A stretch of DNA of 64,000 nucleotides, taken from assembly GCA_000814665.1 (NCBI GenBank), contig JWIH01000004.1, positions 1 to 64,000 on the forward strand, given 5' to 3'. Below the pieces are notes generated by a model that saw nothing but the letters and a program-made list of their open reading frames with translations, was not told the origin of the DNA and made no database searches. This DNA comes from Pseudoalteromonas flavipulchra NCIMB 2033 = ATCC BAA-314 (GTDB lineage: Bacteria; Pseudomonadota; Gammaproteobacteria; Enterobacterales; Alteromonadaceae). A program made the position numbers and the translations under genes. Positions 8,018-10,888 of the stretch are shown in pieces; positions within the stretch are counted from its first letter, which is position 1; each line of letters begins with the position of its first letter.

Positions 8018-8485
8018 TTAGCGGATCGGTAATGTGCGTTTTGCAAAAGTTTGCTTTAGGACAATCGTTGATTCAATCCCGCTAATTACCTTACAGGCGC
8101 CCAGTTGATGTTTGGCAAATTGTTCATAGCTGGGCAAATCCTTTGCTACGATTTCCAATAGGTAATCATGACTTCCGGAGATCACCGAACAACTAATCAC
8201 CTGATCTTCAGATTCCACGTGTTGTTCAAATAAATACGCTGCGGTTGCGGTATTTTCACTGAGCTTTATAAATGCATAAACCAAAATGCTTAGGTCAACT
8301 TGTGCTCTATCCAGTGCCGCATGATAACCTGAAATTACTCCTGTATCTTGTAAGCGTTTTACGCGTCGAAGACAGGGAGTATCAGAAAGGTTTGCCTTTT
8401 CGGCGAGTGAGGCATTACTCAAACGTGCATTATGTTGCAAGGCGTTAAGGAGCAATTTGTCCTTGGCATCTAGATTTACCGACAT
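8018..8485 (-). CDS. Lrp/AsnC family transcriptional regulator
   Basis: 155 aa from the ATG at 8485 (MSVNLDAKDK), the normal length. A longer in-frame extension to 8590 would run across the divergent promoter and is rejected. N-terminal winged helix-turn-helix (LDAKDKLLLNALQHNARLS, then LAEKANLSDTPCLRRVKRLQ, G.I.GY.A) and C-terminal RAM ligand-binding domain ending G..STIVLKQTF. Divergent from the DUF1864/kynureninase-like pair with a 116-bp gap containing an Lrp-type site. Lrp-family regulators commonly control adjacent amino-acid catabolic genes, including kynurenine genes (KynR), so it probably senses an amino acid related to that pathway. Confidence 0.93.
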   Translation of the reverse strand: MSVNLDAKDKLLLNALQHNARLSNASLAEKANLSDTPCLRRVKRLQDTGVISGYHAALDRAQVDLSILVYAFIKLSENTATAAYLFEQHVESEDQVISCSVISGSHDYLLEIVAKDLPSYEQFAKHQLGACKVISGIESTIVLKQTFAKRTLPIR

Positions 8486-8539
8486 AAACGAAATAAAAGA
8501 GTGATTCTTGCTAATCAGTATTAAACTTTTAGAGAAAAT

Positions 8540-8554
8540 TGGCAAATTATGCTC
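8540..8554. promoter_or_regulatory. candidate Lrp-family binding site
   Basis: TGGCAAATTATGCTC agrees with the E. coli Lrp consensus YAGHAWATTWTDCTR at 13 of 15 positions by hand count. It lies midway between the two divergent starts (8485 and 8602). A CTCGTG at 8552-8557 and CACGAG at 8588-8593 also form an inverted pair around the 8602 gene's promoter region. Confidence 0.5.
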
Positions 8555-8601
8555 GTGGTGATTTGCTAGCCTTAACTGTGGAATAATCACGAGAAGTAAT
8601 C

Positions 8602-9789
8602 ATGAGTCCATTAGCCGTACAATTTGACGCTTGGATTAGAGGTCCGTTTGTCGACCTTAACGACAAGCTTGAACATCTTTATTGGCAGCAGCAGGATAAA
8701 GCAAACGTTGAAGGCGTTGGTGAAACGCTAAAAGCACAGTTATTAGAAGAAGGTAATCAACTGATCCAAGCCTTGCTAGAAGAAGGCAATACCGACGAAG
8801 GCTTTGAGCAAGCATTCGACTTACTCGGTAACGTTGGTCTATTTATGGCTGCATGCAGACGCCACGAAATTACCGAGCCAAGCCGTGAAAGGGTGTCTCC
8901 GCTGACACAAGCATCGGCACTGGCCATGCACATTGGTGCCTCTTTGGGGGTTACGCCGCGCTTCGCAACGGCTCATCTCACCACACATAACCGCGCAATC
9001 AACGGCGTGTATAAGCGCTTTACCTCTCATCCGGCAGAGCGCTTATTCATCGACTACAATACTCAGGCCATTCTTGCCTATAAACGTGCGTCCGAATCGT
9101 TAATGAAAGTGCATCATTTGGGAATTTCTCACCCCATGTCATTGGTGCTACTCAAACAAGTTAAGCAAGCGCTGCTTGAGGTGATAGAGTCTAATCGAGA
9201 GTTATTTAAGGAGCTAGATACCGAGGCATTCTTTTACGTTGTACGACCCTATTACAAACCTTACCGAGTTGGTAAAGAGGTCTATCGTGGTGCAAACGCT
9301 GGAGATTTTGCGGGTATCAATGTTATCGATATGATGTTGGGGTTATGCCCGGCTAATGACATTAGTTACGGTCAAATGCTGGTGGAAAAATTCCTCTATA
9401 TGATGCCAGAAGACCAAGCAACCCTGCGTGAATGCATGCGTACGCCTAATTTAATGGATGCGTTTCTGAGTGCATTGAAAGGACCGAAAAGTGATTGGTT
9501 TGGCCCTGCCTGTAGCTTGTTTATACAAGTGTGTAAGCTGCATGGAGATACGGCCATACAACATCACAATCAACTCGTCGAAAAGTATATCGCCAAACCT
9601 TCGCAGGCGATGCAGCAACAGCACTTAAGCAAAGTGACCGCCAGTGGTCCACCGATTGAAGTCTTACTCAAAGAACTCGCAGACTTAAGAGATAGGCGAG
9701 CCGCTGCTGAGCGCGCTGATATCTTTACTCGACATCATGATTTAAAACGATTACGTCAAGCAATAGGGGTTAAGCATGAAGCAATATAG
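8602..9789 (+). CDS. PrnB/DUF1864-family haem-dependent oxygenase-like protein
   Basis: 395 aa. ATG preceded by GAGAAG at 5 nt. I recognise the DUF1864/PrnB family (PF08933), which belongs to the superfamily of histidine-ligated haem aromatic oxygenases with tryptophan and indoleamine 2,3-dioxygenases; PrnB makes pyrrolnitrin from chlorinated tryptophan. Features seen: FDLLGNVGLFMAACRRHE near residue 75, ASLGVTPRF..AHLTTHN near 115-130, FFYVVRPYYKPYRVGKEVYRGANAGDF near 210-237 (split motif; GANAGDF typical) and the C-terminal SGPPIEVLLKELADLRDRR. The stop overlaps the next gene by 14 nt. In Shewanella a homologue is, as I recall, likewise beside a kynureninase-like gene. Role in Trp-like catabolism is inference. 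Confidence 0.8.
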   Translation: MSPLAVQFDAWIRGPFVDLNDKLEHLYWQQQDKANVEGVGETLKAQLLEEGNQLIQALLEEGNTDEGFEQAFDLLGNVGLFMAACRRHEITEPSRERVSPLTQASALAMHIGASLGVTPRFATAHLTTHNRAINGVYKRFTSHPAERLFIDYNTQAILAYKRASESLMKVHHLGISHPMSLVLLKQVKQALLEVIESNRELFKELDTEAFFYVVRPYYKPYRVGKEVYRGANAGDFAGINVIDMMLGLCPANDISYGQMLVEKFLYMMPEDQATLRECMRTPNLMDAFLSALKGPKSDWFGPACSLFIQVCKLHGDTAIQHHNQLVEKYIAKPSQAMQQQHLSKVTASGPPIEVLLKELADLRDRRAAAERADIFTRHHDLKRLRQAIGVKHEAI

Positions 9790-10888
9790 GGATGATTTTC
9801 ACTTGCCTACGGGTCGCTATTTATTGAGTCATTCCGTTGGTCGTATGTTGAAATCTGCAGAGGAAGATTTCCATCAGCAATTTATGGTGCCGTGGCAACA
9901 ACAAAATCAAGAGCCTTGGCAGCAGTGGCTAAGCGGTATTGATCGCTTTACCTCAGCCTTAGCCTCTCTATTACACACCGATGCGCGCCTGTTTTGTCCG
10001 CAAGCAAACCTTTCCAGTGGTTTAACGAAATGGGCAATGAGTTTGCCCGAAAGTGGCATTCGCAAAGTACGCGTATTGATGAGTGAGCAAGACTTCCCTA
10101 GCATGGGATTTGCGTTACAAAACGCGCTGGACAATATTGAGATTGTTTATATTCCCGAAGCGATGAATATGCACGACCTGAGCGTGTGGCAACAATATAT
10201 TGACGAGCAAATTGACTGGGTATTTGTCAGTCATGTTTATTCGAACAGCGGTCAGCAGGCACCTGTCGCTGACATCATTGGCCTTGCTAATCAATATGGT
10301 TGTCGAAGTATTATCGATATTGCTCAGTCACTTAGTGTATTACCAATAAATTTAAGCGAGTGGGGTGCGGATTGCGTTATCGGCTCTTGTGTGAAATGGA
10401 GCTGCGGTGGCCCTGGTGCCGGTTTTATCTGGGTGAATGGGGATGTCTTACCTTATTGTGAACCAAAAGATGTTGGCTGGTTTTCGCATCAAAATCCATT
10501 CGAGTTTGATATTCATCATTTTGCGCTGAGTGAAAGTGCGCTGCGTTTTTGGGGCGGTACACCAAGTGTGGCACCTTATATCTATGCGGGGCACAGCCTT
10601 GGCTATTTTGCCGAGCTTGGGATTGAGCAAGTAAGAGCGTACAACTTTGCTTTGTTATCTGAGTTACAAGCGGCATTGCCTGAATTTTATCGTTCTCCTA
10701 CAGCGCAGAGTGCTTGCTCTGGGACCGCTATTCTGCATTTTGGCTCGCGGCATGAGGCAGTGATTGAGCAGCTTAAGCGAGCAGGCATTGCTGTGGATAA
10801 TCGTCGCTACGGTATTCGCGTCTCACCACATATTTATAATAGTCAGGAGGACATCGCGCAGTTGGTGCAGGTTATCAACGAAAGTTAG
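9776..10888 (+). CDS. kynureninase-like class V PLP enzyme
   Basis: 370 aa. Fold-type I PLP protein: SSGLTKW near residue 80, a cofactor-binding DIAQS near 182, and the PLP lysine Lys207 in GSCVKWSCGGPGAGF, which resembles the kynureninase SYKYLNGGPG motif. Later GWFSHQNPFEFD and RFWGGTPSVAPYI also follow the kynureninase pattern (GW.....F......RF..GTP). Shorter than typical kynureninase (about 410-420 aa). It starts inside the end of the DUF1864 gene (14-nt overlap), so translation is probably coupled and the products likely act in sequence on a tryptophan/kynurenine-type compound. True substrate unknown; a cysteine desulphurase-like role cannot be excluded. Confidence 0.82.
   Translation: MKQYRDDFHLPTGRYLLSHSVGRMLKSAEEDFHQQFMVPWQQQNQEPWQQWLSGIDRFTSALASLLHTDARLFCPQANLSSGLTKWAMSLPESGIRKVRVLMSEQDFPSMGFALQNALDNIEIVYIPEAMNMHDLSVWQQYIDEQIDWVFVSHVYSNSGQQAPVADIIGLANQYGCRSIIDIAQSLSVLPINLSEWGADCVIGSCVKWSCGGPGAGFIWVNGDVLPYCEPKDVGWFSHQNPFEFDIHHFALSESALRFWGGTPSVAPYIYAGHSLGYFAELGIEQVRAYNFALLSELQAALPEFYRSPTAQSACSGTAILHFGSRHEAVIEQLKRAGIAVDNRRYGIRVSPHIYNSQEDIAQLVQVINES

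Follow-up and report, generated by a model that had tools for sequence, protein, structure and literature searches.

A conserved PrnB-family and kynureninase-like gene pair that may stand in for tryptophan 2,3-dioxygenase in Pseudoalteromonas and its relatives

Results

A two-gene unit divergent from an Lrp/AsnC-family regulator

The stretch of DNA analysed here, referred to as the window, comprises 64,000 nucleotides of Pseudoalteromonas flavipulchra NCIMB 2033 (contig JWIH01000004.1, positions 1 to 64,000), and contains a pair of genes encoding a haem-fold protein of the PrnB family (PF08933) and a kynureninase-like pyridoxal phosphate (PLP) enzyme, which we name KynL. An earlier note on this DNA had described a compact two-gene unit, made up of a member of the haem dioxygenase superfamily and a relative of kynureninase, beside a divergent Lrp-type regulator; the unit is indeed present, and the open reading frames, the divergent regulator and the 14-nt overlap between the two enzyme genes all lie where that note had placed them. 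The features of the locus are as follows.

8018..8485, minus strand: Lrp/AsnC-family regulator, 155 aa from the likely ATG at 8485; PF13412, PF13404 and PF01037 above cut-off
8499..8513, no strand assigned: candidate operator GAGTGATTCTTGCTA, a copy of the dyad TAGTGA-N3-TCACTA agreeing at 9/12 half-site positions
8540..8554, plus strand: Lrp-type site of the earlier note, considered not significant
8602..9789, plus strand: PrnB-family (PF08933) haem-fold protein, 395 aa, orthologue of Shewanella SO4414; proposed tryptophan-oxidising enzyme
9776..10888, plus strand: kynureninase-like PLP enzyme KynL, 370 aa, PLP lysine K207; proposed to cleave the oxidised product as a C-C hydrolase

The regulator contains an AsnC helix-turn-helix and an AsnC ligand domain, all above cut-off, and is thus a member of the Lrp/AsnC family, although its score against the equivalog for Lrp proper (NF008370) was 97 bits compared with a cut-off of 233. 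Its open reading frame as listed (8018-8590, minus strand) begins at a GTG at 8590. Because many relatives start near the position of the ATG at 8485, the GTG is probably too early and the ATG the likelier start, which gives an intergenic region of 8486-8601 between the regulator and the PrnB-like gene. The best named relative of the PrnB-like product is that of Pseudoalteromonas sp. S2755 (99%).

The gene pair is a conserved module

Conservation was assessed in 127 loci, the window's own included (105 distinct by protein pair), taken from samples of the genus and the class together with the best 80 of 279 relatives in genome contigs. In all of them (127/127 loci, 105/105 distinct) the KynL gene followed the haem gene in the same orientation at a distance of at most 200 nt, and the divergent regulator was detected in 111/127 (90/105 distinct). 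The best 80 of the 279 relatives belong to Pseudoalteromonas (48), Shewanella (22), Thalassotalea (3), Paraglaciecola (2), Veronia (2), Colwellia (1), an organism labelled Candidatus Thioglobus (1) and one unplaced genome. Within these 80, 9 of the 22 Shewanella loci yielded no regulator, and seven other window neighbours, sought in flanks of up to 4 kb per side, were present in Pseudoalteromonas only. The neighbourhood on whose conservation the earlier note had let its proposal depend is therefore kept, and the pair is a real, widely conserved module that is not described in the literature searched.

It could be argued that the haem protein binds tryptophan or haem without catalysis or as a sensor, while KynL acts on exogenous kynurenines, and one genome (G382) does have a broken haem gene beside a full-length KynL gene (370 aa). 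The invariable adjacency of the two genes speaks against this explanation, as does the fact that the haem protein is strongly conserved (20 sequences with a mean column identity of 78%); we regard it as very improbable.

A Novosphingobium plasmid (L250) carries a more distant PrnB-like homologue (51%), preceded on its own strand by an AsnC-type gene. Upstream there is a gene for an indolepyruvate oxidoreductase; downstream are genes for a TonB receptor, an M20 peptidase, a class V PLP enzyme and an SNF-family transporter. This single locus is taken as a putative setting for tryptophan or aromatic amino-acid catabolism. The plasmid record carries one annotated feature in its whole length.

A haem-superfamily fold with a haem-bound orthologue

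The product of 8602-9789 scores 626.5 bits against PF08933 (cut-off 27) over residues 6-387, and shares the fold common to PrnB, tryptophan 2,3-dioxygenase (TDO) and indoleamine 2,3-dioxygenase (IDO). Its orthologue in Shewanella oneidensis, SO4414 (PDB 1zee and 2nwb), belongs to the same family, is 65-68% identical in structural alignment and was solved with ferric haem (2nwb, by its title), from which we infer that the window protein itself binds haem. The haem pocket on which the earlier note had made its reading hinge is thus represented by the SO4414 complex. SO4414 is a structural-genomics entry titled 'Putative 2,3-dioxygenase', for which no function was found in the literature searched. 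The invariant H322 of the PrnB-like protein, a candidate axial ligand, aligns with the IDO1 His, within a weak profile match (E 0.26).

The named enzymes of the superfamily are more distant. Identity to PrnB is 14-16% in structural alignment, and PrnB acts in pyrrolnitrin synthesis, where it yields a non-oxygenated aminopyrrolnitrin precursor rather than a kynurenine. The window protein has no TDO sequence match and its IDO match is weak. The earlier note had seen no classical TDO in the window, and the whole genome likewise gave no match to TIGR03036 (TDO) at E <= 0.001, in a search that was positive in 2/14 control genomes.

KynL is a relative of kynureninase

KynL scores 84.4 bits against Aminotran_5 (cut-off 21.5) and has a weak KYNU_C match (17.1, cut-off 27). 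When a profile of 16 KynL relatives was compared with solved structures, kynureninases (KynU) ranked first (1qz9, E 1e-27; human entries, E 4e-22 to 1e-20), with SufS behind them (E 3e-19); kynureninase is thus the nearest solved relative by profile. The predicted fold does not separate class V enzymes, and the model is poor at 231-262.

Residues were compared in an alignment of 128 KynL copies (among them near-copies, genomes that were fetched twice and two entries for the window), eight TDO-linked relatives and six true kynureninases. The PLP Lys (128/128 KynL copies), the Asp, a Gly-Trp pair and a Thr are invariant across the three groups. The His of the GWF-x-H stretch is present in KynL and kynureninase and is Glu in the TDO-linked group. 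The C-terminal Arg of KynL, R348, is aligned with the human kynureninase Arg in the profile alignment, the same column being gap-displaced in the 128-copy alignment.

The PrnB-like gene and TDO do not co-occur in the genomes sampled

Among 60 Pseudoalteromonas genomes, 47 contain a PF08933 gene (one of them broken, G382) and 10 contain TDO (TIGR03036 over cut-off), but none contains both (hypergeometric p 4e-9, assuming an independence of genomes that does not hold). A gyrB tree of 59 of the 60 genomes requires three changes for TDO and six for the PrnB-like state. Similarly, in 394 genomes of the order PF08933 occurs in 25 and a TDO-family match (E <= 0.001) in 75, of which 10 are over cut-off, and again the two never coincide, compared with 4.8 co-occurrences expected (p 0.004, uncorrected). 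Two genera of this sample include genomes of both kinds, g292 (12 PrnB-like and four TDO genomes) and g275 (one and three). The two samples have G000 and G418 in common, and the pooled 452 distinct genomes comprise 71 PrnB-like, 84 TDO-family and no genome with both.

By gyrB, genome G385 is placed within a set of TDO genomes, yet it is without TDO and carries the haem and PLP genes, both of which cluster with Colwellia piezophila in trees of 41 chosen rows (SH-aLRT 80 and 97, the former value being low; the tree program also flags the gyrB base composition of G385 and two neighbours). The simplest reading would be that the cassette moved into G385 as a unit and took over.

In 8/10 Pseudoalteromonas TDO loci the next gene encodes a kynureninase-like enzyme of another type, which shares only 21% identity with KynL across 290 residues and at E <= 1e-20 is found only in those 8/60 Pseudoalteromonas genomes. 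The remaining 2/10 loci contain a flavin reductase and a luciferase-like monooxygenase. From the order sample 20 TDO loci were fetched (G418, among them, is also counted in the Pseudoalteromonas set); a kynureninase-like gene adjoins TDO in six (three g292, two g290 and G418), and two (g310) contain a gene, cut by the locus end, that is 51-54% identical to true kynureninase. The pairing of TDO with a kynureninase-like gene is thus common near Pseudoalteromonas and is not general for TDO.

The exclusion of TDO, together with the TDO/kynureninase-like modules of sister genomes, points to tryptophan, rather than an unspecified aromatic compound, as the likely substrate of the PrnB-like pair. The earlier note had proposed a two-enzyme route acting on an aromatic amino acid or indole compound; the compact pair stands, but the substrate was left too open. 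The substrate might still be an aromatic amino acid other than tryptophan, or an indole compound from the environment, the resemblance to TDO modules being generic; the family to which the regulator belongs senses several amino acids. The absence of co-occurrence in 452 genomes and the similar arrangement of TDO with a kynureninase-like gene in sister genomes make this improbable.

Formamidases and other kynureninases

In 6/60 Pseudoalteromonas genomes (L053-L058) a kynureninase over the TIGR01814 cut-off directly follows an HGG-motif alpha/beta hydrolase that resembles an AFMID-type formamidase; each of the six also has the PrnB-like pair, at another place in the genome, and none has TDO. The other 41 PrnB-like Pseudoalteromonas genomes, the window's included, lack this hydrolase (E <= 1e-20) and any TIGR03035 formamidase over cut-off. 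The earlier note had observed that the window lacks a formamidase, and at the sensitivity used the whole genome yielded none. That note had also considered that a full kynurenine pathway elsewhere might explain both genes; in the genome no TDO and no kynureninase over cut-off was found, the kynureninase search being weak for this genome in that it missed the window's own KynL.

A dyad upstream of the regulator

The Lrp site proposed in the earlier note, at 8540-8554, does match the Lrp consensus at 13/15 positions, but 16 such matches occur in the window when 18.6 are expected by chance, and the match is therefore no evidence for an Lrp site. The upstream regions of relatives have in common the dyad TAGTGA-N3-TCACTA. 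Copies with at least 10/12 positions occur in 26/50 regulator-bearing dereplicated upstream regions, compared with 0.66 expected in shuffles, an excess that is inflated because the consensus was derived from the same sequences. The better evidence is the contrast with regions without the regulator, of which 0/13 contain such a copy. The window's best copy agrees at 9/12 positions only, at 8499-8513, 13 bp from the regulator start, and in several loci the best copy is elsewhere or poor. We consider 8499-8513 a better conserved candidate operator than 8540-8554.

Discussion

The data are consistent with a module for oxidative tryptophan catabolism that stands in for TDO, in which a haem enzyme opens the indole ring and KynL cleaves the product, a proposal that we hold to be evenly poised. 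The PrnB-family protein would bind haem and open the ring of L-tryptophan with O2, most likely to N-formylkynurenine; KynL would then hydrolyse the side chain of the oxidised product to L-alanine and (N-formyl)anthranilate, acting either directly on N-formylkynurenine or after deformylation by a non-specific or other hydrolase. The divergent Lrp/AsnC protein would regulate the pair, and probably also itself, through the dyad beside its own start. Extended to the group, the tentative proposal, to which we give somewhat less than an even chance, is that the marine gammaproteobacterial PrnB-family protein is a further tryptophan ring-opening enzyme that has been exchanged with TDO several times, each being partnered by a remodelled kynureninase that takes N-formylkynurenine itself as substrate, and that the pair, controlled by an Lrp-type regulator of its own, converts tryptophan into formylanthranilate and alanine with two enzymes and no formamidase.

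Several findings weigh against these proposals. KynL scores 76.7 bits where the TIGR01814 kynureninase equivalog requires 246.4, and is thus outside the equivalog. Two kynureninase residues are replaced in every KynL copy: the Tyr before the PLP Lys is Val (124) or Ile (4) in 128/128, and the His three residues past the conserved Asp is Gln in 128/128. These positions correspond to the active-site residues Tyr226 (in the Tyr226-Lys227 pair) and His204 of the Pseudomonas fluorescens enzyme, and their replacement speaks for an altered substrate or mechanism. The haem protein is equally near PrnB and IDO in fold, and the fold therefore does not settle the chemistry; PrnB itself makes no N-formylkynurenine. 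The exclusion could reflect competition for one substrate, 3/60 Pseudoalteromonas genomes carry neither PF08933 nor TDO, and the gyrB tree provides three independent contrasts, in which the two genes change in opposite directions in 2.9/3 on average (sign test, median p 0.25). No queried kynureninase occurs within ~1.5 kb of TDO in 12/20 order-sample loci, and two PrnB-like genomes have formamidase-like matches below the cut-off of 223 bits (G377, 79; G376, 21). At the Novosphingobium locus the AsnC-type gene is not divergent, and the class V gene (L250 14772-15896) lies 5.6 kb off on the other strand and scores higher against SufS (111.7 bits) than kynureninase (77.0 bits).

Some of these observations would be accommodated if tryptophan were converted by PrnB-like chemistry into a rearranged, non-kynurenine product that is processed by an altered KynL, with the exclusion of TDO arising from competition for tryptophan. 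The family is named for PrnB, which binds tryptophan and makes non-oxygenated monodechloroaminopyrrolnitrin by a mechanism that its authors describe as unsettled (PMC11791213), and the uniform loss of the kynureninase Tyr and His from KynL fits such a role. The low identity to PrnB, however, does not favour it, and KynL retains the kynureninase GWF-x-H stretch, Thr and C-terminal Arg. In sister genomes TDO, too, is followed by a relative of kynureninase, and no halogenase or Rieske domain indicative of prnA/C/D linkage was found in 14 Pfam-scanned window neighbours, which are spread over 1.7-19.5 kb and do not include every open reading frame there, the rest of the genome and the related loci not having been searched. 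We consider such chemistry possible but rather unlikely.

The proposed catabolic route has partial precedents. In antimycin clusters a dioxygenase and kynureninase pair, AntN/AntP, supplies anthranilate formation (PMC3869250), and the word formamidase is absent from that article; unlike the window pair, AntN is described there as a tryptophan-2,3-dioxygenase and AntN-AntP feed an assembly line. Conversion of N-formylkynurenine to formylanthranilate by kynureninase is a predicted step in Streptomyces roseosporus, according to a second report (PMC9058172). If the proposal for the PrnB-like pair is correct, it would provide a physiological role for a family whose solved structures (SO4414, released 2005 and 2006) have no function in the literature searched, a case in which a non-orthologous enzyme replaces TDO in Pseudoalteromonas, Shewanella and their relatives, a catabolic comparator for PrnB, and possibly a kynurenine route without formamidase.

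Other observations

The broken PrnB-like frame of G382 (L060, and L086, probably the same genome) consists of two pieces, one with an internal TGA; the adjoining KynL gene is full length. In the two Pseudoalteromonas loci with a flavin reductase (L049 5982-10801, L050 2106-6857), TDO is followed by LuxG-type flavin reductase, luciferase-like monooxygenase, asparaginase II-family hydrolase and LysR genes, an arrangement that may represent an additional two-component flavin pathway acting after TDO. In the window, a metallo-beta-lactamase-fold gene is convergent to the KynL gene and overlaps its end by 4 nt. At 1728-2617 two neighbouring minus-strand lipoprotein-like genes, the first without a Pfam match, have a common CGGP-containing stretch and by eye look like a tandem duplication. 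Positions 1-1315 are the end of an rRNA operon (23S 3' part, 1-783; 5S, 899-1012), with the 5S end and terminator partly repeated ~240 nt further on. The open reading frames listed for this region are probably spurious.
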